A stretch of 64,000 bases of DNA, taken from positions 13,748,501 to 13,812,500 of the forward strand of contig JAYKKI010000052.1 of assembly GCA_039881145.1 (NCBI GenBank), written 5' to 3'. The notes beneath the pieces were generated by a model. It had not been told where the DNA came from. It did not search any database and saw only the letters and a list, made by a program, of their open reading frames with translations. Source of the stretch: Druceiella hillmani (taxonomy: Eukaryota > Arthropoda > Insecta > Lepidoptera > Hepialidae). Of this stretch, positions 19,041-59,431 are shown in pieces; within the stretch, counting starts at the first letter, position 1; the number at the start of each line of letters is the position of its first letter. Position numbers and translations under genes: made by a program.

Positions 19041-19127
19041 AAATTTAATAATACACATATTTATAAAAACCGATTAACCGAACCGAAAAATACGGTAAAT
19101 TTATTAATACACGTATTTATAAAAACC
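19035..19127. repeat. 37-bp direct duplication at the satellite 3' junction
   Basis: tacggtaaattta through ataaaaacc occurs at 19035-19071 and again at 19091-19127 with two mismatches, separated by 19 bp. The first copy starts inside the last satellite monomer (tgactacggt), so the second copy carries a few satellite bases beyond the array end. Confidence 0.9.
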
Positions 19128-38612: not shown

Positions 38613-39053
38613 AATGATTGAGGTACAGTTTATCTTTGTCTTCTTCTTTTGTTAGAAGGTTGTGGTCTCTTTTCCCCACGATGACCAGTCGACTTGGGAA
38701 ATTATAAATATAAGTTGTAAATTAATATTTATAATAAAATAGTAAAGTTAAAAAAGTCATCACTTCGAAAAAATATTTTCGAAATAATGAGTTACAGTAC
38801 TTAGTAAATTTCTGAGAGAAATTTTACGTTTATTTTAATTTCCGTTTGTTTTTTCTCCATTTAAAATGTTTGCACGAGTATAACTAAGCTACGGATTTAA
38901 CGCCTTTTTTAAAATCGTAAATATTTGTTGTCGAAAAATTAAGAAATTACTTCTTATTGAATATATTTGGCGTTAATTTTGTAGAAATTCATTGTTCACA
39001 ATTAAATGAAACTACGTGATGTAGTATTATTTCTACTTTCTTTAATTTCTTAG

Positions 39054-39094
39054 CCACGACCTAGGTTTCGTTGTATTACAACATCTTCAGGTGG
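39054..39094 (-). ncRNA. Hammerhead ribozyme motif (copy 1, intact core)
   Basis: Minus strand, 41 nt. Read in order: ccac (stem I, 5' strand), ctgaaga (core, fits CTGANGA), one bulged t, gttgt-aat-acaac (5-bp stem II with a 3-nt loop), gaa then acc-ta-ggt (3-bp stem III with a 2-nt loop), c as the cleavage-site base (position 39058), and gtgg (stem I, 3' strand, pairing with ccac). Very short stem III is typical of hammerheads in Penelope-like elements, which are thought to work best as dimers. The unpaired base between the core and stem II departs from the minimal consensus. Activity is not shown by sequence alone. Confidence 0.75.
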
Positions 39095-39115
39095 GCTAGA
39101 ATATTTGCTAATAGC

Positions 39116-39156
39116 CCACCTAAAGATGTTGTAATAAAACGAAACCTAAGTTGTGG
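39116..39156 (+). ncRNA. Degenerate hammerhead motif (copy 1, other arm)
   Basis: Same layout on the plus strand, but the core is ctaaaga (G to A at the invariant third base), stem II is broken (gttgt-aat-aaaac) and stem III plus the cleavage site read acc-ta-agt-t. Predicted inactive. Confidence 0.65.
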
Positions 39157-39224
39157 TAAAGAAATTAAAGAAAGTAGAAATAATACTACATCACGTAGTT
39201 TCATTTAATTGTGAAATTATTTCT

Positions 39225-39895
39225 TTTTATTTGCCTTTTCACAATAAAAGTCACATAGCAAATATAAATGAAGTTTTCTTAGATATGTTAATTAAATTAC
39301 AGACAAAAAGACAAAGAAAAATTAACAAGAAAATATTGTAATTATCCCAAATTATAAGAACATCTCCTTATAAACGTTGTTTAAAATATAAATTGTAAAC
39401 ATATAGAAAAATTATTTCTTAAGCAGTCTTTTCACGTCGTTTGTCTAAAAATCATCTTTTTTACCATATAATTTGATGGTACATTAATACCTGAAAAATT
39501 AATAAACCGGCTAATTACGTAAAGACATACAGAGAAAGGTTCCATAGTTGTCTACACCTAATGAAATTGTTGACATAGGTCTAAAACTATAAATTACGAT
39601 GATATGACAGATGGATGGACACACACACACGGAGAGAAACTATAAGGGCTAAGTATTTCACTATGGAACCCTAAAATACTTAAACATTCCATTTAGAATT
39701 AATCAAAGTATAGTTTAAGAAGTCGATAATTATTTAATTTTCCTCACGATATTTTTCCATTCTGTAATTTTTTATTGCAAATTTATTTAACATTGTATTT
39801 TTATTATTTTGTGAACCAGAAATTACGATATATCATTAAATCGCGTAAACGAAGTTTACTTATATTTGTTAAATATTTAATTCTTGAAAAATTAT
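39225..39895. other. AT-rich DNA with a dispersed-repeat tail
   Basis: At about 39595-39680, gatggatggacacacac followed by ggaaccctaaaa resembles the tail of the dispersed repeat seen at 19.7, 48.9 and 58.2 kb. Nothing else noted. Confidence 0.45.
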
Positions 39896-39907
39896 TAAAT
39901 CAAACTA

Positions 39908-40090
39908 TTGAATATATTTGACGTTAATTTTGTAGAAATTCATTATTCATAATTAAATGAAAAATATTGACTTGATTGAATCTTTGCTAATATCCCACCT
40001 GAAGATGTTGTAATACAACGAAACCTAGGTCGTGGTAAAGAAATTAAAGATAGTAGAAATAATACTACATCACGTAGTTTCACTTAATTG
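39908..40090 (-). mobile_element. Hammerhead-bearing retroelement, copy 2 (one arm deleted)
   Basis: Element orientation minus, about 183 bp. The tail (ttgaatatatttgacg on the plus strand) and one arm with an intact hammerhead are kept; most of the tail-side arm is gone. It is flanked by taaatcaaacta at 39896-39907 and 40091-40102, a perfect 12-bp duplication of which the outer bases may be shared with element ends. It lies only about 700 bp from copy 1, in the same orientation. Confidence 0.8.
39995..40035 (+). ncRNA. Hammerhead ribozyme motif (copy 2, intact core)
   Basis: Plus strand, identical in every paired and core position to the copy 1 motif: ccac/gtgg stem I, ctgaaga, gttgt/acaac stem II, gaa, acc/ggt stem III with loop ta, predicted cleavage after c at 40031. 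It lies in the arm far from the tail, so it is antisense to the element orientation defined by the tail. Confidence 0.75.
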
Positions 40091-41334
40091 TAAATCAAAC
40101 TAGTTAATTTTCTTTTTCTTAGAGAAAATTTCCACACCTCATATATATACCACAAATATTTGCAGTTTCGTGAGACACGAATTTATTTATCTTCAATGTG
40201 TATTCTTAAAAAGCAAACTTTTTACAAGAAAATGTTAATATTGAAGTTAAAATGAATTGAAATGATAACTTTTTTTTCAAAAGACTAATAGATTAGAAAA
40301 TAAAAGCATTTTAACATAATTCGGCACCAATAATTCGGCATAATTCACTAACGACCAAATTCGTTTCATATTCAACATAAAATTCTTTGTTTTAACTAAT
40401 TAAACATACAATATCTATCAATATTTCCTGAGATTTAAAGAACGGAAAGTTAATATGACCAGGAAAAAATCATTTGATAACGATATTATAGTAACCTCTT
40501 TGTACTCGCTAAATCGTCGTCTTGTTCTTGGAGTTTCGTTGAATCCAAATTATGAAATCGTGTTCTATTTATTCCATACCATCAATGTATACAGCAAACG
40601 CTACGATGATATGCATCAGAATCTTTTCATATTACTAAGCACAAAAATTTAGTTACTAAAAGATTTTTTTCCACATCCATCATATCTCCACAAAATTCAC
40701 ACACTATAAAAATCTAATGTCTAAATCAGAGATTTCATCAAGTCTAGATGGAAGCGTTTTGCAAACCGTAAATCCTACTTTTATTTAAGTATTTGCTAGC
40801 GTTAAGTCGTACAATGTTCACCGCATACCACTCGCTAACGGCTTTTATCTAATTTTACGATCAAGTTTACGATTAACGGTCGAGTTAGTTTAATGATCGA
40901 ACGATGCAAAGCGTTGCATTCACTGTTCAATAAATTACTTCAAGGACATCACCTTCCAAATTTCTAAAAACTTTATTTCTCCTAGATGTAAATCTATTTT
41001 ATATTATTTTAAGAAAATACAGTAATTGACAATTATATTACTTCGAAAAAAATCGACCATTAGACCGATTTAGTATGTTTGTTTATTTTAACAGAATCTT
41101 ACACTTAATTAAAGGTTATATTTGCCTTAATGTACATAGAAGAATTAATTTTTAGTTTCATAAATCTCCATTTTGAATAATATAAATTCGTATGTTGTAT
41201 ATGAAGTACAACTACGATATCATTAACGTCATTGTCAGTGTGTATTTCATTATTTTAAAAATATAATAAAATGGTAAATTAAAAGTAGCTATTTTTGAAG
41301 TAAAACTTCTTTACGCACAGTTGGCTTGGGGAGT

Positions 41335-41633
41335 AAGCTGGTGAATGCGTGACAAGAACGTTACGAAAAATGTGATTGGGCGAGGCGAACGGAAGTTGAG
41401 AGGGAGATATAAGTTAGTGAAGACAGAAAGAGAGAGAGTTACGTTTCGTATATTACTGTAGGAACAAGAGAGAGAGGTGCGAGCACATATTTTCTTTCCC
41501 TCTTTCTCTCATAGCCAGTTACGTTTCGTATATCTAAGACACAATGTAAGCCTATTGTCTGTATCACACTGTAGGAGCAAGAAAGAGCAGTGCGCGCCCA
41601 CATTTTCTTTCTCTCTTCCTCTCATAGCCAGTG
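41335..41633. repeat. Imperfect direct duplication of about 80-115 bp
   Basis: gttacgtttcgtatat through ctctcatagccagt occurs at 41438-41519 and 41519-41633; the second copy carries a 33-bp insertion with ctaagacacaatgtaagcc. Both hold a purine-rich caagagagagag part and a pyrimidine-rich tttctttc part. It abuts the long TA tract. Confidence 0.8.
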
Positions 41634-41637
41634 CATG

Positions 41638-41639
<2 letters not shown>

Positions 41640-41691
<52 letters not shown>

Positions 41692-41693
41692 TA

Positions 41694-41744
<51 letters not shown>

Positions 41745-41782
41745 ATATATATACACACACACATATATATATATATATATAT
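41640..41782. repeat. Long (TA)n tract with a (CA) interruption
   Basis: About 140 bp of TA with phase slips (tataatat, tattatat) and a cacacacaca segment at 41753-41762. The tyrosine/isoleucine open frames on both strands here are artefacts of the repeat. Confidence 0.95.
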
Positions 41783-42109
41783 TTATGCGAGTTTGCTAGC
41801 GTTACGCGAACGGTGATTTATCTCAGAAAAAAAGTTTCCGTACCATGGAAAAAGTAAATTTTTTCACGATTTAATGTCCAAAACCACTGTATGAATAAAG
41901 TAGTGAATACCTATATACGGAGTTCCAGTGCATCCTTAAGTTTCCGTATCTGAAAAAAATTGACCATGATTTTCTGAAATAAATTTCTTTTCAAAATGCA
42001 ATTAATTTTATAATAATACGGAAAGTTGTTCATATTGTTTAGAAAACACTTCCTAGTGTTTTAGAGTTTCAACACTTTAAAGTTTCACGACCGAAGTTCC
42101 AACGTGACT

Positions 42110-42480
42110 CATTACCGCCACATTATGCAGTGAAACCTTGTGACATCCTTAACATCCTTTCAAACCTCAAGAGCATAATACGAAAAGCCGAACGAGTATG
42201 GACCGGAAGTTATTTATGTTTTCATCTTACGTCGCCTCTGCTCAGTCGCTACGGAGCTCCGCACGGAAAAATTGAAAATGTGGAGCGGCGACGCGCACGC
42301 CGCCGCGCGCCGTAGACGAACAAGTGCGGCCCGTAACGGCATCATTATAATGGATGAAATATTTTAAATTACTTTCGCCCGCCTCAAATTGCTTCTTGTG
42401 TCGTTGCGTCGTGATATTGCTACGCCACGGCTGACGCGACGTGGGCCGTGCCGCGTGGATGAACAATTAAGGTGTGCGTC
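42110..42480. other. GC-richer, CpG-containing island
   Basis: Raised GC with dense CpG: gtggagcggcgacgcgc near 42280, gccgcgcgccgtagacg near 42300, gctgacgcgacgtgggcc near 42430. Short frames on both strands have arginine-rich compositions due to CpG, with no recognisable domain. The embedded AT stretch atcattataatggatg could hold homeodomain-type sites, which is inference only. Confidence 0.45.
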
Positions 42481-43210
42481 GAAGTTGAGTATATGTATGT
42501 GGCTTGGTATACTACGTAAAAGACTTCTGAAAGTAAGTTTCCTGTTTAAATAGTGGTAGAATAAACCGGAGTTATTATTCCCCTATATAAGCTGAAACTT
42601 CCATAGATTCAGCCAATACCACTATTATGTGCGACGGAAATGGAGAAAGGACGGTATATTACAATTGAACGGTATATATGAACGGTATATTGAACGGTAT
42701 ATATGATTGAACGGTTAGAAATTAGATCAAAATTGGTACGTTCGTTCAAAATTTAAACGTTCAAAATGTATAAGAGAAAATATTTTTAAATAAGATAACT
42801 TTTTAGCTAAAATTATTTTTATTAGTACATAAATGATGTCCATATTAATTAATTCAACAAGTTGAAAAATAAACTATGGTATAAATAAGGCATATTGTAT
42901 AACGAAAACTAGTCGTATTCAAACCGGTATTCAACAATTTATTTTTTAAAATTAGGAGTTTGTTTCGAAAGGTAACACACGTAGCCAACTTATATTTCAT
43001 AGTATATTTTATCTTTCGTAGTAATTTTAGAACCTAGCAATAAATACTATCAAATAATTCTTAGTAATTACTTTCAGCCCTTCCATTGAAATAAATTACT
43101 ATTAAATACCTATAACTGCAAAACCAGAGTCCAAAATATTAATAAATTCAATATTATCCGACTATCCACTTGTATTTTAGTACTTGTACGTTCCTTAGAG
43201 CGAAATATAC

Positions 43211-43408
43211 ACAATTAAATGAAACTACGTGATGTAGTGTTATTTCTACTTTATTTAAGTTCTTAACCACGACCTAGGTTTCGTTGTATTACAACATATT
43301 TAGGTGGACTATTAGCAAAGAGAGTAGAAATAATACTACATCATGTGGTTTCATTTAATTGTGAATAATGAATTTCTACAAAATTAACGCCAAATATATT
43401 CAATACAA
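43211..43408 (+). mobile_element. Hammerhead-bearing retroelement, copy 3 (one arm deleted)
   Basis: Element orientation plus, about 198 bp. It starts acaattaaatgaaactacg and ends ccaaatatattcaatacaa. The tail-side arm has lost its ribozyme section, joining agcaaag to agagtagaaataatac. It is flanked by aaatatac at 43203-43210 and 43409-43416, an 8-bp perfect duplication. Confidence 0.8.
43267..43307 (-). ncRNA. Degenerate hammerhead motif (copy 3)
   Basis: Minus strand. Stem I ccac/gtgg, stem II gttgt/acaac, gaa, stem III acc/ggt and the cleavage-site c are kept, but the core reads ctaaata instead of ctgaaga, so two invariant core bases are lost. Predicted inactive. Confidence 0.65.
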
Positions 43409-43801
43409 AAATATACTATAAAACATAAGCTAAAAGTATGAAATATTAAAATGTTGATTATATTTGAGAGTATGTAGTGATTTATTTTAATTACTCACTA
43501 CCTAATTTATTTCAATTACTCGTTACCACTAGTTTTACTCGTAAATAATAAATACTCTATTGGAGGAATTAAAATATTGAATTGGGAGACGTCCCCTAAA
43601 TTTTAACCAAATGAAATTTTTATTGCAATTTATGTTTCGGAGATTTCGATGGAACATCTATTTATATATAAAATTAAATGACCTGTTCCTACTTTTTTAT
43701 AGTATATACTCGACCTTGATACTCGACCTTGGCTTCTCCAACTCATATTTCTTCATAAATTCTATTATATCTCCCTTCATATTATGAAATCCCTTATACA
43801 T

Positions 43802-43810
<9 letters not shown>

Positions 43811-43838
<28 letters not shown>
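43811..43838. repeat. (TA)n microsatellite
   Basis: TA tract preceded by a short (CA) run, directly adjoining the foldback element that follows. Confidence 0.95.
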
Positions 43839-43842
<4 letters not shown>

Positions 43843-44040
43843 TATTTTCAACGAACTTAAAAATACTTAACTGATTTTATTGATGGGTGTCAAAATTGCC
43901 AATTTGGCCATTTTTTATACTTCGAACTGCACGGTGTCAAAATGGCGACAGTTCGAAATATAAAAAATGGCAAAAATAGCAAGTACACACGTGACCCTCT
44001 AATAAAATCAGTTAGGTATTAAGTACTTTAAAAATACCAA
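43839..44040. mobile_element. Foldback/MITE-like element, about 91-bp inverted repeats
   Basis: The left arm (43839-43929) starts ttggtattttcaacg and includes aactgattttatt and ccattttttata. The right arm (43949-44040) mirrors it and ends aaaaataccaa. The arms nearly meet, leaving a 19-nt centre (cacggtgtcaaaatggcga). It sits immediately beside a TA tract, which is compatible with a TA-targeting transposon family, but no clean target duplication was found on the right side. Confidence 0.75.
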
Positions 44041-47000
44041 AATTGTTATCTAAATACTTTTGTATTACTTATTTCAAAACAAGAAAAATGCTCTAAACCC
44101 TATTTAAACCTGTAAAGACACGAAACTAACGACATGTGCATAACAGGTCACCTCATTCTCATAAACATTTCTTTGAGAAATTCTATATTTTAGTGCATTG
44201 GTTAAAGAAAATCAAAATCGAAATACGTAGGTAGGCCTTCCAAACTAGATATGTAAATAACAATGCACAACAAAATTAACGATTAATCAAGTTTCTCTCC
44301 GTTCCCGTCCATCTCCGTTTTATTAATAAAAGAAAATTAAATTTAAACTTACAAATAAACACTAAACTTTTACTAACGACCATTAAAAAACCCTTTATTT
44401 TTTTTTGAAACGGGGAATTTATAAAAACATTTTCCAAACCAGAACGCCACTTCAAAAAATTATTTTCGAATAATTTAGTGACCAAACCTTTTTATTTCGT
44501 GCATGCGTTTTGTCATCATTATATTTTCATTAAAATAAGTAATATAAGTAATAAAAAATTCCACGAAATTGACCTTGCCAATTAATTTGACTATCGTTGT
44601 TCTTAATATTTGGGTCGACAAAAATGTTCTTATTAACTCAATTACAGTATCAGTTTTACCAATAAAAAATTTGGCAACACAACAGTTTAAAATTAAGTGC
44701 TATAAAATAATTTGTTTTTAATGTTAGGAAATAGACAATAGTTTCGTAATTTTTGGTTCTTTAAATATGTACACTCAATGTGAATGTATTCGAATGTAAT
44801 GTATTCATACGTATGTAGTTAAGTATGCATGTGAAGATAAATAACCAATATCTAATGTTAGTTGTCATTGTTAATATAATTGTCCGAATAAAATAACGGA
44901 AAATAGTAATGACCCCTAAATCTTAAGAATTCAGTGAAAATAATATATGTATTTATTTCACAACTCGATAACGGATATGTATAATGGGTTTATTTGACAA
45001 ATGGTTTTCCTTTTTCTTAGTTATGCTTTATTTATCTATATTGTTAAGCTGTTTTTGTACACGTCGCAGGCAGCTAACAAAATGTATCTTAATTTCATTT
45101 TTTCATTTAATTTCCATTTAATCTTATTTTCGTCACTAAGTTTCATATGATTTTTTCATATTTCTCCTTTCCCACCATTTATCATCGAATAGCTCCCCAG
45201 TCTTGAATTTTAATGATGTCAGTAATTACAACTCGGATAATTTTACAAACAATCTATTCTTAGTATAGCTTTTCAGAAAGAGATCTCGTTTTGAAAAATT
45301 ATATATATTTTTAATTTTTAAAATATTTATTATGACCGAAAATTGTTTTCGGAAAATAACTTGCTTATCTGTCCATTGGTCTGTACGTACATATGTACTT
45401 ATGTACGTATTAGGACACGCTACTAGAGGTCGCAATTCTTGGTGATAATTTTTTCCATCTATTGGGTATCAGAATAAAAACTTATTCATTCTGACCATGA
45501 TTTATGAAACAATTTCATTTGTATAAACAATTTTCTGTAACTACGACCTTTTTCCGTGCTTGACAACTATTCCCGCTCTTGGTTCCCTATACATCCAACT
45601 CCCCTTCCCTTAGTTCCTTGCTCTTTTTAACTTTTTATAACTATTTATTTAAGACATTTGATATTGTTAATGATTTCTTAATTTCTTATAGAAAACCTAT
45701 ACATGTAATAAAATCAACAATACATGTCTACCTTGAGCCTATTAAATAACATTTGCTTTATACAATATGTAGTGAAGAAGTATCGAAATCTATACATCTA
45801 ATAAAACGCGTGAAATCTGTAATGGAAAATATGTTGACAAGACTTGAAAACAAGCGGTGTGCTCTGGTATACCTGAGTATAAATAAATCTGCGCTTTGGT
45901 AATTTTATTAGCTGAGCATATCTTGCTGTGTTTTATGTTTTATTTTTTTTCTGTTAAACTTTTTCAGACTTAGAATGTTAAATAAAAAAAAAATATGATG
46001 GAGTTATTGCTACAGAAGCAGTATCTTTCAGCTCATCAGATAGCCACAAGTGGAGAAAGAAAATATAAAACCTATGATCCAGCAGTTATGAGAAATAAAT
46101 CATTAAATCGTTTATAACAATGCATCGAGTTAAATTTTTCAATTCTGATCATTTTGTTTCAATCCATACTTAATTCTCAATTTTTATAACATTTTTCAGA
46201 TTTTTCGGAGCGATCTTTTTGGTCGACAGCAATTTTTAAGCGTTTTTATCAAAAAAATATTCGAAAAAATGATTAAATAAAATATGATAAACTCGTTCTC
46301 CTATAAATTTTGACACTATACACTCTTTGAATATTTCTTTGCGTCCCAATTTACCCTTAAAATTAACGCCCGAATCAAAATTAAACTTTTTATATTTGAA
46401 ATCTATAACTAGACCTATATTTGTGATAAATTTAAAATATTAACCTCGAGTATTTTATGGGAAAATCGTTTGAGACAGAAGGACGGATGGATATCGAAGT
46501 GATTCGATAAATTTTCCGCTTTGGGAAATTTGCTACACTAACACAAAAAATGAAAGAAAAAATTCATAGATGAAAATAAGAGGTACAAATAACACTAACG
46601 TGAAGTTAAATGAAATGATACAAGCAACACATATGGAGTTATAAAGGATGAGGTTATATTGCTTAGTTATGTAGCGTATACGGTAAATTGTTCTCAGTAG
46701 AACGCAGTCTTCATTATCTTTAGAATATTTGGACTTACTTTACTTCTGAAATAATGAATAATAGCATTCACACGAAATAATGTAAATTTACTTAAGTACC
46801 ATTAGTACTTAAGTAGTATTAGACTCAACCAAAATTATGCTTATAATCTATGTTATTTTTTAAATGAAATGTAAACCGCCTCAAATGATAAATTATATAT
46901 CACTAGTTATCACAAAATAACCACTTTTAAATAATCAAAAACAACGAGAAAACATGAAAAAAACGACTAGCTAATTATTTTATTTATAATAACTGACTCT

Positions 47001-47810
47001 AAGATCAGTTGTAAATAATATCGCAACTACTTCGGAACTACGAGTATCCCTTAGTGCTTTTATTCGGATACTGCCCACGATAAAGTTTAATGGACGGAGG
47101 CATCCCAAGGGAGAGAGATCCAGGAAAAGTCGAAGTTATAGTTGAAGAAGTTATGGCAGGGCGTGACTTGCATTGCTGCTAAGATTAAAGTAATCCGATG
47201 GAGTGAGGCGATGAAGATGCGACTCGTGAAATGCATTTTTTAAAGAAGTAGCGAGATGTTTGCAGGGTAAGTAATAATTGTTTGGATTGAATTTGTAATA
47301 AATTTTAATTATTTGCTCAATATAAAGGGATTACTCAGGTATTGAAAAGATTGAATTTTCATATTCCAAGAAAATATGACGGGGTAAGAAATTTGAACAT
47401 ATATCGGTTCCTAAAGTTAAAAGTAAAATAAAAGCTTTAATTTTTTGATGCCAAACAAAAAATTCCAATTTCTGGTTAATAAATGAAAACGTATACAACA
47501 TCATAAAATATAGTAAATGTTCCATTATGGATGGCCAAGTGCGAGATTGGCTTAAGCATTAAGGGTTCAATACCTCGTTCGAAATGTAATTGCTGCATTT
47601 ATTACAAGTCCTCGTAAATATGGAATTTCCCGAGCAAAAATATTTAATATTAGCCGTGATAATTAAGTAGAGGTATATATATATATATATATAAGTATTA
47701 ACGTGGATATTTCAAAAAGAATAAACATCTAGAATTATCGCTATGATTTTTCTACAAAGATTGTATAAATTTTTAAAAACCCTTTTTTCAGTGAAGACTT
47801 AAGTGGTTTC
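44041..47810. other. AT-rich DNA, no gene seen
   Basis: Degenerate pieces at 45340-45400 (cttatctgtccattggtctg) and 46475-46520 (gacagaaggacggatgg) resemble tails of the dispersed repeat at 19.7 kb, in opposite orientations. A moderately GC-richer stretch at 47085-47240 has no intact frame. Confidence 0.45.
47525..47625 (+). repeat. SINE-like head fragment (tRNA-like A and B boxes)
   Basis: tggccaagtgcgagattgg resembles a polymerase III A box and gggttcaatacctcg a B box at tRNA-like spacing. The following ttcgaaatgtaattgctg and catttattacaagtcctcg are shared with the 35.9 kb fragment. This order is like that of lepidopteran SINEs beginning ggcc..gtgcgagt and ..ggttccgtacc, as I recall them. 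Confidence 0.55.
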
Positions 47811-48221
47811 GTAGTTAAGAAGGTACTTCAGTAGTTAAGGAGTTACTTCAGTAGTTAAGGAGTTACTTCAGTAGTTAAGGAGTTACTTCAGTAGTTAAGG
47901 AGTTACTTCAGTAGTTAAGGAGTTACTTCAGTAGTTAAGGAGTTACTTCAGTAGTTAAGGAGTTACTTCAGTAGTTAAGGAGTTACTTCAGTAGTTAAGG
48001 AGTTACTTCAGTAGTTAAGGAGTTATTGCAGTAGTTAAGTAGTCACTTCAGTAGTTAAGGAGTTACTTCAGTAGTTAAGGAGTTACTCCAGTAGTTAAGG
48101 AATTACTTCAGTAGTTAAGGAGTTACTTCAGTAGTTAAGGAGTTACTTCAGTAGTTAAGGAGTTACTTCAGTAGTTAAGGAGTTATTTCAGTAGTTAAGG
48201 AGTACTTTAGTAGTTAAGGAG
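47811..48221 (+). repeat. 20-bp minisatellite, about 20 units
   Basis: Head-to-tail copies of agttacttcagtagttaagg. Most are identical; variants such as agttattgca, agtcacttca, agttactcca and aattacttca cluster in the middle and last units are shortened by one base. A precursor-like half unit (gtggtttcgtagttaagaag) sits at the 5' edge. Confidence 0.97.
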
Positions 48222-48899
48222 TGTCGAAACATATTATTTTTGTTGCCTAATTTTCAGCATATCTCTGAAAATATGCTATCCAAAATTATGAAAAAAATTT
48301 TGCGTGTCAGCTCTGGTGTTTACCCCTTAAGTACGATTGTCTTAGGATGTATATAAATATGAATATGAATGTCATTGTAATCGTCATCTAAATGGAAAAT
48401 TGTTTAATAAAAAATGCTGACAATATAATTATTTTTAAGAAAAACAAAAATAAACAAGATCAAATTAAAAACAATTAGTAACGTCAGACTGAGAAGTCAA
48501 AATTAAAAGAGACTTTTTATTATGTAGGATAGAAAACACCAAAAGTATAAAATATTCCCACATAATGACATTTAATGATATAAGCGAACGATAGGAAACT
48601 ATGTGTTTCACACACCGTCATTGCGATTACGACGTTAAAAATGTCAGTATGTGTGTCACACTCTGCCATTACGAATGCGCCATAAAAAAATGCCAAATAA
48701 ACATATTAATAACTCACTCTAACCATGCGCAGAAATGTTGCGCGGAGAGGCCACCTAACGGTTACATTTTTTTTAACGGCTGATTTCACTCCTTACCAAA
48801 CTTTATACCGGGCGTCGTATATGAAAATCGTTTCTTAAAAAGTGAAATCCAAAAATATTTTTGCGATCCTTATTTACTAACCCTTTCAAACAATACACA

Positions 48900-49148: not shown

Positions 49149-50399
49149 AACAACACATTAATAACAACGAAGCCGAAAATTGCGGAATAAATATGAAATT
49201 ATGTTTGGCCTTCACTTTGGTCAAGTGCATTTTAAGATATGATAGTGTTTTCTTACTATTGAAAAATAGTAAGAAAAGATTATTTTAGTTAACCCGTTGG
49301 TTAAAATTTATAACACATTATGCAGTATATATATTATTAATATTGTATCTTTTGATTAATAATTTATGGCCTACTGTAGTTCTTACTCCACAAACGGAGT
49401 TCTTGACACCTTCAATTAATGTTACATGAAGACCACATGATTGAAACGTTAATGCAGTCACTAACTTGAAATTCCTGGTAATGACATATCAACTTGCGGG
49501 TTTTAGTGGCGTGAAATATAGATGTGTTTAAATTAGCCTGAAACCTAGCATATTAAAAACATACATGATATTTAAATATAGCATTGGTTTATTTCGACAA
49601 TGATCGCCAAAAAAAAATGAAAACCATTAATGTAAATAAGCTGAAATGTTCAAAATAATATAAAACATTAGTGGGCACGAAAACGTAGTTTAGCTTCTGA
49701 AAGTTAAACAGGCCTAGACGGCTTTGTTTCAACCTGTTAACACTCGATGTTTCTGATTATTCATTTTGATTCGTTCCTACCGCAATAGCCTTAATAATTA
49801 TGTGTTTAGATTTGGATGGATACTTCCATCCTTGAAAAAAAAATCCTGAAAACCATAATTTTGACAACTATTCTTCAATATCGATTGTTATTCAGTACTC
49901 ACAAATATTGATATGGTTTATTTCTATCCTAACAGCCAATATCATTATATGTTCCATGTTTGGATACACGCATGATCTCCTTATCGACTATATTTTGTAA
50001 GAAATTAATTTCTGTATACTCTTTCCGTGATTAATTTCGTTTAAAATATAATTAATATACAATTATTATTACGTGACTTGGATAACTTTTCATTACTCTA
50101 TTTCTGATTGTAAATTTTCACAATATATATAACAACTTATACATTTATTCCTTGTAATATTGAGAGATACTTAATAATTACTAATGTGTTCGGAAATTAT
50201 CTTCTTTTACCAATTTCGTTACCATACGTATTGAGATTAAATTTTTCTTAACAGCAGAGAAGCCCAATCGCAGCTTAATGAATTCCCCAGTCTTAATTAA
50301 CTCCGCGAAATAAGTTTATACATTATTAAAATCGATATAGAAATCTAAGAGATTTGACAATGTTTAACTGAAACAAGAAGCAATTAAAGCCAAAACAAT

Positions 50400-51070
50400 T
50401 TTTCCTCTCAAAACGGCATTCCGCTCTCTTCCACTCCGACGCAACTCACTTCAAAATGATAATACAGAGGAACTAATTTCATTTCGCAGCCGACTAAGGA
50501 GATTACATGCTAATATGCATCATTTTAGATTCAATGAGCGAAAAAAAAAATTAGCATTATTCCAATGTGGTACTCAAATTTGCTCGCTCAAAGCGACTAA
50601 GCTGATTTACTTTCAGACGAGCACTCTGCGGAATGAAAGTCAACTAACTGCCGGCCAGATTAAAGAAGGCGTACCTAGCGCGGCAAAGTGGGGCGCGGAG
50701 TCGGAGGGGGAATAAGATAAAGAAAAATATATATCATTACAATGAATTTCGTGGCAGCCGACGACCGCGGCCCCGAAGGAACACGTCGTCTGAAAAAGGG
50801 GAAAAAATACGGAACCGCCTTAGAGGAAGAGCGGACTTTCGAAAACGGAGCGTTTTCAATTCTCCGTATAAAGGGATAAAAGGAGAATGAGCACGCCAAG
50901 AGAGGAGGCGAAACTATGCATTATTATGGAGACGGGGCACAATGCAGCGGACACAAAGGCTGCCAGCCTCCGTCTTAAGAAATTTGCGTGTTCGGCCTCG
51001 TCTCGCTGTACAGATGTGTGCAGTTAGCGATAGGGACAACAGACGTGTTGTGGGGTGCATTATTGTTAAT
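50400..51070. other. GC-richer, CpG-containing island (largest)
   Basis: About 670 bp of raised GC: ggcaaagtggggcgcggag near 50680, cagccgacgaccgcggccc near 50755, aaaacggagcgttttcaatt near 50840, tgccagcctccgtctt near 50960. Several 66-74-codon frames overlap on both strands, none with a recognisable domain. Two atgcat words (50515, 50915) could be POU-type sites. Candidate conserved non-coding or promoter-like region. Confidence 0.45.
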
Positions 51071-51712
51071 GGCGAAAGTTTCATTAATATGATTCTAGAT
51101 TTTATAATTTGGCTGATTGATTTATGCTTGTTAAAAGAGAATAGCCACTTATAATATAATAATAAATATAATTATAAATACTGACTTAATTGTCAGTGAG
51201 CACTTGAGTACTCAGTCCTTTTTACACTTGGATAATATATCTGTTGTATTACATTGTTATCATCTTCAATAATGTAATATCCATTTAATTAATTCTTTTT
51301 GCATATTGCACTCTATGTGGTGCATATACGAAGTGTACTCTAACTGATATCGTCCCGATACTTTGGACTGTGTCGCCAAGTAACTTTTTTAAAATGGATA
51401 TCTATTTATGTTATTTCAACGAATTTATAAAAACTATCTATTACAGTAATAAAGAAAGTTGTTTTGTTTTATAATATTAAGTAATTTTCGGAGGAAAATT
51501 TTGTTACAATACAAGATACAAAATTTTGGTCTTTCAATGTTGACTTCCTTGGATAGGTGAAATATTTAATAGAATCTATTCCGGAGGGATTCGTCTGCTT
51601 GTCTATTCTCTTTGCCAGCTAGTAGTTTTCATCATAGTCCTTAAAATTTCGTACAATAATTTTGTTAAGTAATATATTCACTCGATCTAGTGGTACCAAC
51701 ACTTGACAAAGG

Positions 51713-51713
<1 letters not shown>

Positions 51714-51772
<59 letters not shown>

Positions 51773-51773
51773 C

Positions 51774-51841
<68 letters not shown>
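51714..51841. repeat. Long (TA)n tract
   Basis: About 128 bp of TA with phase slips (ataatatatcatat) and one tacata interruption. Apparent tyrosine/isoleucine frames on both strands are artefacts. Confidence 0.95.
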
Positions 51842-51843
<2 letters not shown>

Positions 51844-52015
51844 CCAATTCGATATTTAATTTATTGGATATATAAACACAATTGTCCTCTGCCTAGACGA
51901 CAATTGTAGAATGTTTTTTCATTCCCTTTGCCATTTAGTTATTGAAATTTTATTCTAAACTTTTGAAAGTTGACACCGTAGTTTCTTTTTTATGAATAAT
52001 TTTATTGAACAAGAC

Positions 52016-52061
52016 TTTCACTCAATCCACCATTGCCGAACTAATGGTGGGTTGAGTGAAA
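52016..52061. repeat. Hairpin with 19-bp arms and 8-nt loop
   Basis: tttcactcaatccaccatt (52016-52034) pairs with aatggtgggttgagtgaaa (52043-52061) with a single mismatch, around gccgaact. It is short and GC-balanced compared with other foldbacks here. No known small-RNA precursor was recognised. Confidence 0.9.
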
Positions 52062-52235
52062 ATGTTGGTAAAATTTCCGCGCCGATAATAAATTGTTTAT
52101 GAATTTAATACTCAACCAATATTTTATTTCTGTCTTTCACATTATTATCTACTAGAATCTTGTGTTCCACATTCGGAAATAATAAACAAAAATTACAATG
52201 AAAATTATTCGTTGCTTTAATTTAGTTAAGGCGAT

Positions 52236-52380
52236 AGCCAGACACGATTAGCTTTAACTATTATTATCTATTAACTATTACTTATTTAGCCAGACACGAT
52301 TAGCTTTAACTATTATTATCTATTAACTATTACTTATTTAGCCAGACACGATTAGCTTTAACTATTATTACTTATATATT
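52236..52380. repeat. 52-bp tandem repeat, about 2.8 units
   Basis: agccagacacgattagcttt begins at 52236, 52288 and 52340; each unit continues aactattattatctattaac. The units are essentially identical, so the duplication is recent. Confidence 0.95.
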
Positions 52381-52504
52381 GTCATTTACTATTATTTTTC
52401 GCTAATTGGAGCAACAACTTAATGTAAATAATATTTCGATCTTCCTGGTCCGGTGACATACAATCATATCATATATAAAGGAGAAGGAAGATTTGGGCAC
52501 ACGA

Positions 52505-52981
52505 ATGAGTTCAATTGCCTAAGCTCTTCAATCAATATGAACAAAAATAAAATCCCGCATATTTAATCAGTGTATACTACCGGTCATCACTTATTGGCCC
52601 GAAACTTGGGTACCAACAAAAGCCGTCCTACAAAACTCAAAGGGCAATGGAAAGAAAGTTGGTAGGAATCTCCTCAAAGGATAGTTAAACAAATAAGTGG
52701 CTTCGGAGACAAAGCAAGGTAGCTGACATTACAAAGAGAGGGGCGAAAGTTAAGTGGCAGTGGGCTCATCACATTGATGGAAAGTCGGATTCGTGGTGCA
52801 AAATTCTCTTGGAGTAGAGAAGCTGGGAGTGCAAAAGACCAGTTGGGCGGCTATAAATGAGATGGAAGGATGACGTTATGAAAGTGGTGGGAACAAACTG
52901 GATCCAGATAGCCCAAAATAGAGTCGAGTGGTGCAGGTTGAAGGAGGCCTACACCAAAATGGTTGAGAATGGCTTATTATA
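52505..52981 (+). pseudogene. LINE reverse transcriptase C-terminal fragment
   Basis: The frame holds IFNQCILPVITYWPETW (about 52561-52610), corresponding to the LPVMTYGSETW block after the RT palm. After a frameshift come RAMERKLVGISSKDS, SKVADITKRGAKVKWQWAHH and MRWKDDVMKVVGTNWIQIAQ, ending NRVEWCRLKEAYTKMVENG and a stop at about 52981. This is the C-terminal part of a non-LTR retrotransposon polyprotein (endonuclease/reverse transcriptase type common in Lepidoptera). It has at least one frameshift and several in-frame stops. The catalytic RT core is absent, consistent with a 5'-truncated insertion that then decayed. The downstream aatacgatgatatgatatata may be the start of its 3' tail. Confidence 0.85.
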
Positions 52982-53984
52982 ATACGATGATATGATATAT
53001 AGAAGAACATTTTTAAAAAAGTATAACAAATTAAAAATAGAATAAATACTTTCATTTGTATTTAGTTAATAGACGATTATCACTGATATTTGGATTGTGA
53101 AGTTTGTTCAGTCTTCATTATAACATCTTATTTTCAATGAATAGTTACCATATGGAAATGGTGAACTGTCAGTAAATATACAGTTAATCGAAATTGGTCA
53201 ACTTCTCAATCAATATAGTGGGCCACATTTTTAGAATCCATACAATTTATGGATTCTTATTTGGTATAGACCCAAAATTTTCATATTTACTTACCATAAG
53301 TTTATAGTTATTGCTGGATTGGTAAACAGGATACATTTTTGATATGACGGAAACATATAAAGAAATTGAAAATACCCTATGAGACGCCTAACAATTTTGG
53401 TGCGAAATAACGTGAAATTGAAACTGTTAAATTGTAAGATTTAAATTTATATAGTTATCTCATATTGTGATAGGCATTTTTTAAAGTTTCTGAAACATTA
53501 ACTATGTTTAACGTAGAACAGAAAGTAGACCATTCTCGTCCAATTACTGGTTCTCTATGAAATCGGTAATTAAGGGCCGTGATAGTATACCCTGCGTAAC
53601 CCAGACTATTTAGGCCATTCAGTGCATAATAGGGTTACCATAATGGTGTCATCTAGTGATTAGTAGCGAGTGTTAAGTGACATTAGGATGAAAAGAAACG
53701 TGTGTGAAAAGTATACTTACTGAAAATGACAATTTTTTAATGGGACACACGTGACTCTCCGTTCCCATGTGTTCATTTATTAAAGCATTAATTATATATT
53801 TCTATATTTTTTAACCTCATTGGTAAAATTATTTATTCTTAATATTAACTTGAACTATGAGAAAAATATTTAAATGAAATGACACGTACAAATTATTTTT
53901 ATATTAACTACTTTAATATCTTTCTTTATTATATTACTATCATTATCTCACTAAGGTAAAACAAATTTCAATTTTTAAAAATAA

Positions 53985-54135
53985 AAAAACGGAACCCTTA
54001 TATGAACACTTCGTTTTCCGTCCATCCGTGTGTCTGTCGCAGCCTTTTTTCTCGTAAACGACTTCACATATCAAGTTGAAATTAATATACCCGAGCCTTA
54101 TATTGCTCTGAAAATCTCAACTTTTTTGGTTCGCA
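53985..54135 (-). repeat. Dispersed SINE-like repeat tail, minus orientation
   Basis: aaaacggaacccttatatg, cacttcgttttccgtccatc, cgtgtgtctgtcgcagcc and ttttttctcgtaaacg, then atcaagttgaaatt, is the reverse-complement order of the gacagacggac / gggttcc ending. This motif order is very common in moth and butterfly DNA. Confidence 0.6.
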
Positions 54136-54187
54136 CAACAAAAATATATGGCTGTTTAAACCGTATTTTTTTATTCATACAATTGTC

Positions 54188-54370
54188 CAGAATTACGAAA
54201 CTACGTGATGTAGTGTTATTTCTACTTTCTTTAAGTTCTTTACCACGACCTAGGTTTCATTGTATTACAACATCTTCAGGTGGGCTATTAGCAAAGATCT
54301 TTGCATCACATACTTTCATTTAATTGTGAATAATGAATTTCTACAAAATTAACTCCAAATGTATTCAATA
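54188..54370 (+). mobile_element. Hammerhead-bearing retroelement, copy 4 (one arm deleted)
   Basis: Element orientation plus, about 183 bp. It starts cagaattacgaaactacg and ends ccaaatgtattcaata. The tail-side arm has lost its ribozyme section (gcaaagatctttgca joined to tcacatactttcattt). It is flanked by tcatacaattgtc at 54175-54187 and 54371-54383, a perfect 13-bp duplication and the clearest in the family. Confidence 0.85.
54243..54283 (-). ncRNA. Hammerhead ribozyme motif (copy 4, one stem II change)
   Basis: Minus strand. Core ctgaaga, gaa, stem III acc-ta-ggt, cleavage-site c (54247) and stem I ccac/gtgg are all intact. Stem II reads gttgt-aat-acaat, turning its core-proximal G-C pair into G-U. 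Possibly still foldable. Confidence 0.7.
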
Positions 54371-55079
54371 TCATACAATTGTCTTACTCACTAATCATTG
54401 AAACCTGGTTAGATATAGGGTACTTCCGGTCGACCTGAAATTTTGAAAGTCGGCATAATATAAGGTATAAACACCTCACAAGTAAATCCACAAATATAAA
54501 AATGAATGGTTGTATGTGGAATTGTATATTCTTATGATTAATTTGTTTTTACGCCTGTGAAAGATAGTATACGATATGATCACATTATGAAAAATTAATA
54601 TTTGTGAATGGTTTAATTAGAACCGTTTGTACCCTTAAACGTTTATAAATGCCTAAATATGTGCTCAACAGGGGTCACAACGCCGCGGTTGTTGCATTTT
54701 AGGCTTCCCTTTTCGTATCTTCACGAATTTGGTGGTCAACCAGTTTTAATTTCTGTTTAATTTATATCATTCTATCAATATAGGCATATCTACAGAATCA
54801 ATATATACATATTAAAATTAATTTGTCCAATGATAGCTACTTAGCTGCTATGAGGAAACTAACTTACATATATACGTAAATAAACTGCTAAAATCATAAC
54901 GTCTTTTTTAGTATCGTCGCAATGAAATAATAAGAATATCACTGTAAAATGGAGTTTATGCTCTCTAATTAGACAATAAAAACGCAATAAATTATATTTA
55001 TGTTTATAATGATACGAACTAATTCCATGACAGAATGTTTTCACTAGCTTATGAAACATATCTTCTTCTCGGTTAGCAC

Positions 55080-56060
55080 TAAATCCTATTACAGGTCAAG
55101 GCTGTCTCGACAAGCTTTCTCCCGCGGATCCGACTCGCCAGCGTTGAATTTGTAAAAGCTTAAAATCCTTCTCGACACAATAGATCCATCTTGTGCGAGG
55201 TCTTCCTCTTTTTCTGGTGCCCTCCACATTGACAAATGTCACTTTCATGACCGGGTTGTTTCTTCAAATCTAAAAATGTGCCCAAGCGCCCTTATACGAA
55301 ATTATTTAATGATTCATACAATATTTGGTTGCTTAAATTTTCTATAAATTTCACGATTAAACAAAATGCTCCATTTTTTATTTTCTTTGACTGGGCCAAA
55401 TATTTTATGAAGTATTTTTCTTTCAAAAATAAGAAGTCTATCCTCATCTGCTTTTATTAAATGCCAACATTGACTGTCATACAGAATTATTGGTCTAATA
55501 CAAGTAGTATAAATATTAATTTTTGATTCCGGTTTTAATAGTTAGATTTCAGAAAATTCCTTTGGCTGAAGTAGCACCTATGAGCCATATACAATCTAGT
55601 ATCGATTTCAGGCTGGGTATAGTTTCTATTAGTAATGACAGTACCGAGATATGTGAAACGGTCAACATATTCGAAGACGTAAGAATTTATCTGCAGTGGG
55701 AGGGAAGTATAAGATTTAGTTGTTACCACCATGAATTTTGTCTTTCCCTCATTTACGGTTAATTCAATATCCTTAGCTGTAGCCTCTAACGAAATAAAGG
55801 CATACACAACAGCCTGTTTGCTGTGCGATGTCAATGTCATCAGCACAGGCCAAACTCTGTAAGGACCCCTAGAAAATTGTGCCCCTTGTTATAATTCCGG
55901 CATCTCTAATTGCTTTTTCAAGAGCAATGTTAAAAAACAGGCATGCAAAAGCATCAACCTGTCTTAAGCCTCTTTTAGTATAAAAAGCTTCTGAGAGTTC
56001 CGACATAACTTTAACTCTACATTTAACTCTTTTGAAAGTAATTCTAGAGAGTACATGAAA
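55080..56060 (-). pseudogene. LINE reverse transcriptase fragment (palm to C-terminus), frameshifted
   Basis: From 56055 down, one frame reads VKCRVKVMSELSEAFYTKRG then LRQVDAFACLFFNIALEKAI (the G-L-R-Q-G-D-A-L-S block, with the G and S lost) and RDAGIITRGTIF. Next comes LACADDIDI at about 55855-55828, the catalytic Y-A-D-D box with Y changed to C. The frame then shifts, continuing SKQAVVYAFISLEATAKDIE, VNEGKTKFMVV, RFTYLGTVITNRNYTQPEID and, past a stop, YTTCIRPIILYDSQCWHL, KADEDRLLIFERKIL and IFGPVKENKKW. Closing blocks such as LGHIFRFEETT are also recognisable. It is a non-LTR retrotransposon RT of the insect endonuclease/RT type, 5'-truncated and inactivated by frameshifts, stops and catalytic changes. 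Confidence 0.88.
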
Positions 56061-56269
56061 ACATATACCTCTTAAAATTTAATGTTGAACAAAACTATTT
56101 TTCTACCTCAAACAGGTCAGCTTATAGATCACGAACTTATATTATAGCACATAATTATATATTTAACACATTCTTATAAATACTCAAAACACACTTTAAT
56201 ATTCAATCTAAGTACCTATATATCTATATAACCTTTGAACCATTATGAAAATAAATCTTTACTACCAGC

Positions 56270-56500
56270 ATCAGTACTGGCCACGTAGCTCGGAGCTTCA
56301 CAGATCTTCTCTCTATCTCCATACAATTGTAGATGCGAGCAGCGCGATGTTTTTTGCTCTTCAACGTCGGCTGCGCCTATTCACGACGTTGTCTTTAATC
56401 TTGGCAGTTTGTCCGTTCGTCTCGAGCGTAGCCCGCAGACGTCTGGCGTAGACGGCCTGCGTCTACGAGCGCTCGATGAGCTGTATTTTCTTTCAATTGT
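56270..56500. other. GC-richer, CpG-containing island
   Basis: Raised GC with CpG (gcgagcagcgcgatg near 56335, gtctcgagcgtagcccgc near 56420). A small dyad cgtagac/gtctacg brackets ggcctgc at about 56447-56467. No repeat match or coding domain seen. Confidence 0.4.
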
Positions 56501-58030
56501 AACAACTCGATTACATATTTACAAGTCAGTCTGCGGGAGGTGCCCATAAATGAAATGGGATTTTTCTCAGAGTGTATTGAATGTGTATTTCTTTATTTTT
56601 TAATGTATTTAATTTAGGAGGGGTTACCCCATTTTAATATTAATTATGTGTATTTAGCAAAGACTTAGCCAAATTTGAGGTTCATGAAAACTAATCTTTT
56701 TTGTTAGCTTAATATATTAAAATAAAATTTAATGTTACAAGAATAATTGTCTTACTATTAATTATGAAGATTATTAACTAAAAATAATATTATACATAAT
56801 CAAGGTAACAAATCCCAAACTTATTTAATTTCATCCTTTAATATCACAATAATATTGAGAGACTATTCAAAAACAAATTTCTTATTTTTGTAATAAAGAA
56901 AACATAGTTCTCAAAACCTTCTCAATTTATCAAACTAAAAACTATGCTTATGTATAATACGGTCCATATGCGCGCAACATTTGGTAATGATTGGTTAAAT
57001 ATTTAAATAAGTAATTAAGATTAGAAAGGATTAACAAAAGTTTAAAATATTGTTATATTATTTTATTAGGACCGTTAGAAAAGTTCGCGGCATTGAAATA
57101 AAACTAAATAGAGCAGTTTACAAAATTATTACTATTTCTCAATCTAATCATCACCTAGCTCGTTGTACTTCCTTCATCTGGTTTCTAAAGCCATTAAACC
57201 ATTTTCAAAAAATGTTTCCTCCAAGTCCCCTAAATTCGCATCGATGGCAGCTTAGGTTTCTTCGTTTGATATAAATTTCTTTCCACCTAAATGTTTTTTT
57301 TTATTAAAAAAACATGTAAAACTCAGACGGTATCAGATTAGGTAAATAAAGGGTAGTAACTCGAAATTACATTTCAAATTACGAATATCTGTCATGATTT
57401 TTAGGGATGTGTGAGCGCGCGTTTGCCTCATGAAATAAAACTTTTATTGACATTTCTGTCTGTTTTTCTTTTATTTCACCACGCAGTCGAGTAAAAGGGC
57501 CCAAAAGTATGTGGAATTTATAGCGATATCCTTTGATATAACCTATTGTAACTTTTTGTCAACCAGAATACCGATATCATTACATTGTTAGCAGACAAAA
57601 TTACTTCGGCTTTTTTTGGCTCTGGTAACCCCGATCTTTAAATATAAGTTTTAGTAAAGACTTAAATGAAAACAATAAAATAATGATTAATCCAATATTT
57701 ACGTAATTATAATTTTTACTTGTTTTGTTTATTAACAAAAAAAGTAGAAATGCAATGCAATGCTACACATGGAATCAAACAATCTCATAAACACGGGGAA
57801 CGAAAATCGTAGAAGGATTTTATTTCAGACGAGTATATAGGTACGGAAAATAAGCAGCATTATCTCATTGATAGTAGTTGCGAATAAAATAAAACCTCTA
57901 GGATTCTGTACCCCATTTTAAGTGAAATTGTTTTATTTATTACGATTCATACGTGAAATAACTAAGCAATGAAGACACGTACATATATCATCGTAAATAT
58001 CTAAAGTCTATTACATGTTGAATTATCACA

Positions 58031-58124
58031 TTATTATTCTAAAGTTCTGTTTTCTTCATAATTTTAAATTCACTAATTTCTGTGAACCTAAAGTTATGAA
58101 GAAAACAGAATTTTAGAATAATAA
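58031..58124. repeat. 31-bp inverted repeat, 32-nt loop
   Basis: ttattattctaaagttctgt at 58031 continuing to 58061 pairs with 58094-58124 (ending ttttagaataataa) with one mismatch over 31 bp. The loop contains its own small dyad (ttcac..gtgaa). Foldback element remnant or a hairpin-forming locus. Confidence 0.9.
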
Positions 58125-58149
58125 AATTATAATTCTGCCATATATTTTT

Positions 58150-58480
58150 TTTCTAGTTTTTAGTACATCTCGGAAGATATACTGTCTGAAACAATATTTT
58201 TGAGCTAATATTACCTTAATTTGGGACTTTTCAATCTATACCACATACTTTCCATGGAATTTGATTTTTTTGCAAATAGTTAATTTACCGCTCCTAAAAT
58301 TTCCATGTAAATATTGCTGATAATCATATCCATTTCCATATGTACATAGAGATTAATATATTTGATTACTATGTAAAATTTCAATTTTCTGCGTAAAACG
58401 ATTTCTGAGAAAAGTTACTGTGGTAGATGGACAGACGGAAACTTAAGTGGTCTTTGAAAGGGTTCCTTTTTTATTTATTC
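58150..58480 (+). repeat. Dispersed SINE-like repeat, copy at 58.2 kb
   Basis: Starts ctagtttttagtacatctcg with gaagatatactgtc, and ends tagatggacagacggaaac with tttgaaagggttcctttttt. It aligns in order with the 19.7 kb copy but is diverged. Confidence 0.55.
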
Positions 58481-58694
58481 GAAGTACCACCAACTCTGAT
58501 AAAATATAAGGAACGGTCAATAAAATACATTTAAAACTTTAAGAGACGTCAAAACAAATGAGACTTATTTTTTAGAGGAAGCGAAGAAAAAAAATAGGAA
58601 TCAAGGTAGAAATCTGTATATTTAAAGAACAATAGTAATAATTGTTATACTGAAATAAAAACTTTACTAGATTACGTGTTACGATCATATATAA

Positions 58695-58918
58695 TTAATA
58701 TAATATTCACATCTTCACGTATTATACTTATCACACCTTTAAGTACGAGTATATACAATTACTATAATATTCACACCTTCAAGAATCATACGTATCACAC
58801 TTTTACGTACGAGTATATACAATTGCTGTAATATTCGCACCTTCACGTATCATACGTATCACACATTTATATACAAGTATTTATATAATTACTGTAATAT
58901 ACACACTTTCACTTTATA
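58695..58918. repeat. 64-bp tandem repeat, about 3.4 units
   Basis: The words attcacatcttcacgtatta, tatcacacctttaagtacga and gtatatacaattactataat recur at 64-bp spacing (58705, 58769, 58833) with moderate divergence; the last unit is partial. Confidence 0.9.
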
Positions 58919-59220
58919 TCCAACGTAAGGATATTATTTATACTAACAGTTGTGTGAACAAAATCATCCAACATGAAACAAATTTATTAAAAGACTCTGG
59001 ATATAAAAGTTACTTTACTAATACTTTTATCATATGCAATGTCGCAAAAATGAATTAAGCGACATTTTAGTGGCTTACATACCGCATAGTTTTACACATC
59101 ATTATTTTAGCACTTATCAGAACTATTTAAATATAATATACTAATATTATTAACGTAAAAGTTCACAATTAAATGAAACTACGTGATGTCGTATTATTTC
59201 TACTTTCTTTAAGTTCTTTA

Positions 59221-59261
59221 CCACAACTTAGGTTTCATTGTATTACAACATCTTCAGGTGG
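59221..59261 (-). ncRNA. Degenerate hammerhead motif (copy 5, outer arm)
   Basis: Minus strand. Core ctgaaga and gaa are intact, but stem II ends acaat and stem III plus the cleavage site read acc-ta-agt-t, so stem III loses a pair and the cleavage-site C becomes T. Predicted inactive or weak. Confidence 0.65.
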
Positions 59262-59279
59262 GCTATTAGCAAAGATCTT

Positions 59280-59320
59280 TGACCTGAAGATGTTGTAATA
59301 CAACGAAACCTAGGTCGTGG
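59280..59320 (+). ncRNA. Hammerhead ribozyme motif (copy 5, inner arm)
   Basis: Plus strand. Core ctgaaga, stem II gttgt/acaac, gaa, stem III acc/ggt with loop ta, and cleavage-site c (59316) are intact. The 5' strand of stem I is tgac rather than ccac because the arm breaks at the hairpin turn, so stem I with gtgg is reduced to two good pairs next to the core. Confidence 0.68.
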
Positions 59321-59431
59321 TAAAGAACTTAAAGAAAGTAGAAATAATACTACATTACGTAGTTTCATTTAATTGTGAGTAATGAATTTCTACAAAATTA
59401 ACGCCAAATATATTCAATAAATGTAAAAGTT

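Follow-up and report, generated by a model that had tools for sequence, protein, structure and literature searches.

Between positions 38955 and 59419 of a 64,000-nucleotide stretch of the Druceiella hillmani genome (contig JAYKKI010000052.1, positions 13,748,501 to 13,812,500; hereafter the window) lie five copies of a short repeat with seven hammerhead-type motifs, all at the places given in a preliminary description made from the letters alone. Are these copies small ribozyme elements in their own right, or parts of something larger? We show by sequence comparison that their arms are the last ∼115 or ∼157 nucleotides (nt) of the pseudo-long terminal repeat (pseudo-LTR) of a Penelope-like element (PLE). 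On this comparison the repeat is a PLE pseudo-LTR end and no independent ribozyme element.

The parent element and the tail

We searched the 2.59-Gb source genome with a GIY-YIG peptide (best 150 of 3177 candidates scored) and examined ten loci. At L054, the endonuclease end of an open reading frame (ORF) is followed by the arm in sense orientation, and the same arm lies inverted ahead of the ORF. The inverted pseudo-LTR ends match at 88% over 508 nt; one is tail-less, the other carries a tail, and a target-site duplication is present. With the L054 ORF as query (best 150 of 7231 candidates scored), the same arm and motif, including an extra T described below, were found downstream of the endonuclease ORF at 8/8 loci, one of which (L062) is the query's own place. 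Whole elements are present at L070, L071, and L072; in each, one inverted end lacks the tail and the other has it, and a matching duplication lies at both ends. The pseudo-LTR copies are both direct and inverted in L070, and L054 and L072 have inverted ends. ORFs of 807 (L072) and 804 residues (L070) share a common start, and the L072 product matches RVT_1 at 55.2 bits and GIY-YIG at 21.0 bits, slightly under the cut-off of 22.6. The arms correspond to the pseudo-LTR ends of an element encoding reverse transcriptase (RT) and GIY-YIG endonuclease, which establishes the Penelope membership that had previously been inferred. Longer copies, for which a genome search had been proposed together with a link to a Penelope-type RT, are found at L054 and L070–L072, the RT match coming from L072.

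A relaxed hammerhead descriptor applied to L052–L061 returned motifs in L054, L056, and L060 only, all of the arm family, and Rfam found no hammerhead in 251 bases of L058, which belongs to another PLE family. PLE endonuclease matches often form neighboring minus-then-plus pairs a few kb apart, so whole PLEs, too, are frequently arranged head-to-head.

The tail, ∼42 extra nt on one of the two ends in L070, L071, and L072, is the start of the PLE ORF. It contains ATG AAT TTC TAC AAA ATT AAC GCC AAA TAT ATT CAA, the start codon and first 12 residues of the PLE protein, and the ORFs of L070 and L072 both open with MNFYKINAKYIQ in the reading frame of the tail. It had been flagged as a possible ORF start before any full-length copy was found and was later confirmed by both ORFs. 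In older copies, changes in the tail are mainly silent or mild (L024, MDFYKINAKYIQ; L012, MNFYKIGAKYIQ).

The match of the arms to pseudo-LTR ends refutes an origin from a foldback or miniature inverted-repeat transposable element (MITE) type of DNA transposon with a chance hammerhead-like stretch. Long inverted arms and a sub-cut-off Rfam score would suit such a transposon, but the two arms are unequal, the duplications of around 12 bp vary in length, and the motif has a very low rate in random sequence, so that we regard this origin as scarcely credible.

PLEs, inverted pseudo-LTRs, tails, and PLE hammerheads are already known. In the compared passages of a study of Adineta vaga (PMC3846280), endonuclease-bearing Penelope elements resemble those described here in their inverted head-to-head pseudo-LTRs, in the palindrome at the inverted junction, and in a pseudo-LTR that extends into the ORF start; it holds 12 codons there, and the tail lengthens this to 22. 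The A. vaga tail is an optional 31 bp on one inverted pseudo-LTR and the duplication measures 8–10 bp, compared with ∼42 nt and ∼12 bp here. Sequences captured between solo pseudo-LTRs are a further resemblance. Unlike in A. vaga, an abundant class in our genome consists of two pseudo-LTR ends alone (∼260 bp), and the compared passages mention no hammerhead, in contrast to the motif found in our arms.

PAc, a Poseidon element of Anolis, likewise has an RT and GIY-YIG ORF with a hammerhead near its start, according to the portions of PMC11167929 consulted, on which all statements about PAc rest. Purified PAc protein cuts and extends both target strands in vitro and starts internally at two adjacent sites, the PAc tail being the interval between these RT start sites, as we propose for the present element. 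AT-rich targets are common to both. In PAc, the hammerhead cuts 26 bp into the ORF, whereas the predicted cut here (GGTC/GTGG) lies 65 nt upstream of the PLE start codon. An ATG at arm position 28, taken as a PAc-like ORF start, was dropped, the ORF actually beginning at arm position 120. PAc cleavage required protein and was unnecessary for insertion in vitro, and the study leaves later insertion steps unvalidated.

One tailed and one tail-less arm per copy

With copy 1 of the window as query, we scored the best 40 of 1316 first-look candidates. Together with window copies 2–4, these 40 loci, among them window copies 1 (L001) and 5 (L006), form a set of 43 copies. The window copies and their motifs are as follows.

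38955..39215, minus strand: copy 1, head-to-head pair; tailed arm 38955-39098 (sense minus), tail-less arm 39101-39215 (sense plus)
39054..39094, minus strand: hammerhead-type motif, copy 1 tailed arm; core, site, and stems complete, extra T
39116..39156, plus strand: degenerate hammerhead motif, copy 1 tail-less arm; CTAAAGA core, CCTAAGTT
39906..40095, minus strand: copy 2; truncated tailed arm 39906-39962 (sense minus), tail-less arm 39980-40095 (sense plus)
39897..39907, plus strand: target-site duplication AAATCAAACTA left of copy 2, read in the sequence
40092..40102, plus strand: target-site duplication AAATCAAACTA right of copy 2, read in the sequence
39995..40035, plus strand: hammerhead-type motif, copy 2; complete, extra T; Rfam RF00163 at 16.6 bits on 39993-40037
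43206..43405, plus strand: copy 3; tail-less arm 43206-43321 (sense minus, mutated motif core), truncated tailed arm 43317-43405 (sense plus, no motif)
54182..54370, plus strand: copy 4; tail-less arm 54182-54300 (sense minus), truncated tailed arm 54304-54370 (sense plus); duplication TCATACAATTGTC
54243..54283, minus strand: hammerhead-type motif, copy 4; one G-C to G-U change in stem II
59162..59419, plus strand: copy 5; tail-less arm 59162-59278 (sense minus), tailed arm 59282-59419 (sense plus)
59221..59261, minus strand: weak hammerhead motif, copy 5 tail-less arm; CCTAAGTT variant, 2-bp stem III
59280..59320, plus strand: hammerhead-type motif, copy 5 tailed arm; intact core, weak stem I

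Every one of the 43 copies pairs, head-to-head, a single tailed arm extending to around arm position 157 with a single tail-less arm extending to around 115; within each arm the sense strand of the motif runs from the center outwards. The same one-tail rule holds in the five window copies and in the three whole PLEs, none of them chosen for a tail. Target-site duplications with a match score of at least 8 flank 37/43 copies, compared with 9/212 shuffled pairings. They are ∼12 bp long (12 and 13 are the commonest matched lengths), and the one at copy 1 is imperfect. The inner end of the tail-less arm (n = 43) belongs to class GCAAAGAT in 16 copies, to class GCAAATATTCT in 18, and to neither in 9, with window copy 2 (W2) assigned to GCAAATATTCT by a one-mismatch rule and also readable as GCAAAGAT. 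The tailed arm joins at many different places (40 centers displayed) and stops at arm positions 101, 69, and 91 in window copies 2, 3, and 4, respectively.

A family of five copies had been described; five are indeed present in the window, but the first-look candidates point to far more genome-wide, as do 6 elements in 109.8 kb that the arm query had not picked at those places. Extrapolated roughly, the number in the genome is of the order of 10^5, from sampled stretches most of which flank other copies.

Proposed two-strand priming and its alternatives

How would a pseudo-LTR end come to be inserted as a palindrome? The copies are probably PLE insertions of this end alone, generated by two-strand priming and joining of complementary DNAs (cDNAs). 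The PLE protein would cut both target strands ∼12 bp apart, and reverse transcription would start within the leader RNA at two neighboring points separated by ∼42 nt, with the upstream start on one target strand yielding the tail-less arm and the downstream start on the other strand the tailed arm. Both cDNAs would grow past the hammerhead motif in the direction of the RNA 5′ end, and short homology would join their ends into a head-to-head palindrome. Such an insertion would carry only the stretch just upstream of and across the PLE start codon. Two cDNAs from one leader RNA, joined end to end, would account for the palindromic layout; we infer the priming on two strands, the use of the mRNA leader as template, the guidance of the join by microhomology, and whatever part hammerhead cleavage may play.

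Alternatively, the ∼260-nt palindrome may have arisen once from PLE pseudo-LTR ends and may since have spread as a single unit, transcribed and then copied by the PLE machinery, like a non-autonomous short interspersed element (SINE). The varied joins of the tailed arm, together with the two classes of tail-less inner end, favor joining at insertion over such unit copying. Centers differ in many copies while the short-arm inner end falls into two classes, the tailed arms of window copies 2–4 end at three different positions, and whole PLEs show the identical layout of ends. We consider a SINE-like unit unlikely, although it would fit the high copy number and two further findings which weigh against joining at insertion: some copies have an identical central join, and the bases 51A with 54T occur in 19/40 short arms and in 1 long arm, independently of arm positions 16 and 66. 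The two arms of one copy agree at position 16 (30/37) and at position 66 (36/40), for which one RNA per insertion accounts; it does not account for the short-arm bias of 51A/54T. These bases characterize 15/16 of the GCAAAGAT class and 1/18 of the GCAAATATTCT class (p = 2e-7), and two RNA species as source would explain the bias. Two more points belong on the same side. In the PAc in vitro assay, start sites were alike on both strands (PMC11167929), whereas the two ends differ here. The one-tailed query, which retrieved 40/43 copies, could have let pairs without a tail escape, so that tail-less pairs may be under-sampled.

Within the two-strand priming model we suggest, with rather more doubt than confidence, that the short palindromes are fossils of one asymmetric reaction, in which a PLE complex would copy nothing but its own 5′ leader, the upstream start would always fall on one strand and the tail site on the other, and the tail-less inner end would record the 5′ ends of the template RNAs, in two classes (ATCTTTGC, AGAATATTTGC). 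If so, PLE start sites, template ends, and joining can be read in vivo from a very large number of copies, and pseudo-LTR-end palindromes are among the main results of PLE activity here. The insertion mechanism of PLEs is largely open, and insertions of ∼260 bp that display ends, start sites, duplication, and join make a two-strand model testable by counting. A search of the literature at title and abstract level returned no PLE class made solely of palindromic pseudo-LTR ends with hammerheads. An abundant palindromic class without an ORF, inner ends of two classes, and the extra U are not described in the literature compared, which for the U does not extend to the published small PLE hammerheads.

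The hammerhead-type motif

The motif at 39995-40035 reads CCAC-CTGAAGA-T-GTTGT-AAT-ACAAC-GAA-ACC-TA-GGT-C-GTGG. Order, stems, core, and cleavage C are as listed in the preliminary description, but the T (U in RNA) between CTGAAGA and stem II had been omitted, and the motif without it (CTGAAGAGTTGTAATACAACGAA) has zero matches in the window even when 3 mismatches are allowed. Apart from this U, the core CUGANGA…GAA, a non-G cleavage base, and three stems are complete at 39054-39094 and 39995-40035, as had been reported, and the weak stem I of 59280-59320 and the G-C to G-U change of 54243-54283 also hold. Our descriptor (stem I of 4 bp, CTGANGA, 0–1 extra nt, stem II, GAA, stem III, non-G site) recovers 4/7 motifs: 39054-39094 (minus), 39995-40035 (plus), 54243-54283 (minus), and, with a 2-bp stem III, 59221-59261 (minus). 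Among the other three, 59280-59320 (plus) keeps its core with a poor stem I, and two have core changes.

Random sequence gave 0 descriptor matches in 20 Mb. In 288 Mb of first-order random sequence, scanned on both strands, a near-identical scanner found 11 matches (∼0.002 per 64 kb), and 1 when stem II had at least 5 and stem III at least 3 bp. Because the descriptor had been widened by one base to fit this motif, the null is not a blind one, although the margin is wide. A chance origin of the whole layout is unlikely. Rfam is less favorable. On 39985-40045 (61 bases), it lists RF00163 (Hammerhead_1) as the sole family and drops a weaker hit from that clan; the 16.6 bits of RF00163 are half the gathering cut-off of 34. 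Nothing in the window reaches the gathering score, and hammerheads are absent from the results at E ≤ 10 over 21.5 kb and over ten further copies with their flanks, where the high scores come mostly from microRNA models responding to long hairpins. A whole-genome search with RF00163 at E ≤ 10 returned no match, a weakly informative result since 73/260322 candidates were scored and the control fell below the cut-off in 11/14 genomes.

May the motif then be a dead or never-catalytic look-alike, unable to cut with its extra U and tiny stem III and retained solely as part of the PLE leader? We rate this a little under an even chance, and it is compatible with two-strand priming. The extra U beside A9 points in this direction: stem II is separated from A9 by it, and does not directly adjoin A9 as in type I hammerheads, in the window motifs and in 17 listed PLE-linked motifs. 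The Rfam score and the lack of covariation do so as well; among 1225 pair cells from 104 motifs, a single one shows a stem change on both sides, and it lies in L012, whose core is broken, the copies being too young for this comparison. Nor is the core clearly better conserved than the rest (2.0% versus 2.9% in long arms, 7.8% versus 3.1% in short arms). In 16/40 loci, one or more motifs retain the core, the non-G site, and 12 pairs. On the other side, random sequence yields the whole layout far less often, 12/17 listed PLE-linked motifs have it in identical form, and hammerheads are repeatedly reported in PLEs. The motif is hammerhead-like in layout and lies at the place given for PLE hammerheads in published work; self-cleavage here is putative.

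Small hammerhead variants of PLEs were reportedly described by Luense et al. in 2017. Type I hammerheads with minimal stem III in pseudo-LTRs, as found here, were reported by Cervera and de la Pena in 2014, as cited in the part of PMC7761336 consulted. ACCTAGGT is self-complementary, so two RNAs could share an 8-bp stem III, which agrees with published reports of small PLE hammerheads acting as dimers.

Cleavage in vivo would place RNA 5′ ends at GTGGTAAAG, and a leader template would place them at ATCTTTGC or AGAATATTTGC. The direct copy in L072 starts exactly at the predicted cut. We collected the 5′ regions of all other ORF-query rows with an open frame of at least 690 residues (19 rows, 4 of them inside L070–L072) and examined 15. 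Joins resolved relative to the cut lie at +61, +271, +204, −67 (three places with a common flank, hence one event), +271, and +51; three further regions hold a longer direct copy up to the edge of the stretch, three an inverted copy only, and one nothing. Hammerhead cleavage as the maker of 5′ ends was rejected, with 1/7 resolved events (L072) at the cut, a figure that also suits a look-alike. L074 and L085, direct PLE copies at separate places, share a start point 271 nt beyond the cut. The motif sits in a segment repeatedly inserted without the coding part, so that its role is separable from coding function.

Type I hammerheads, small non-coding repeats, and low GC are shared with metazoan non-LTR retrozymes (consulted parts of PMC7229834), and PLE enzymes have been suggested as retrozyme machinery (part of PMC7761336). 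A self-cleaving element of this type, spreading via small circular RNAs cut by the hammerhead, is nevertheless very improbable here. Known retrozymes are head-to-tail tandem repeats with hammerhead-bounded monomers and circular RNAs (PMC7229834), whereas 43/43 short copies are head-to-head pairs, and their outer ends lie ∼60 and ∼100 nt past the predicted cut.

Elsewhere in the window, open frames at 38122-38610 and 55535-55888, both on the minus strand, resemble by eye pieces of long interspersed element (LINE) endonuclease and RT; Pfam gave no match at E ≤ 0.001. At 43864-44018 lies another long hairpin, not related to the palindromic copies and perhaps a MITE, which matches microRNA models in Rfam. 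In L024, an old palindromic copy, a separate repeat of ∼175 bp (2540-2714; 1533 first-look candidates) is nested between the two arms; the 231-nt center of this copy had been considered as a longer pseudo-LTR, which was rejected because L044–L051 have the repeat without the arm. Positions 47811-48222 of the window hold a tandem repeat of a 20-bp unit (∼21 copies), and a tandem array of a 140-bp unit at 11086-19043 (∼57 copies, 97% matches) accounts for the GC and AT skew at 12–20 kb.

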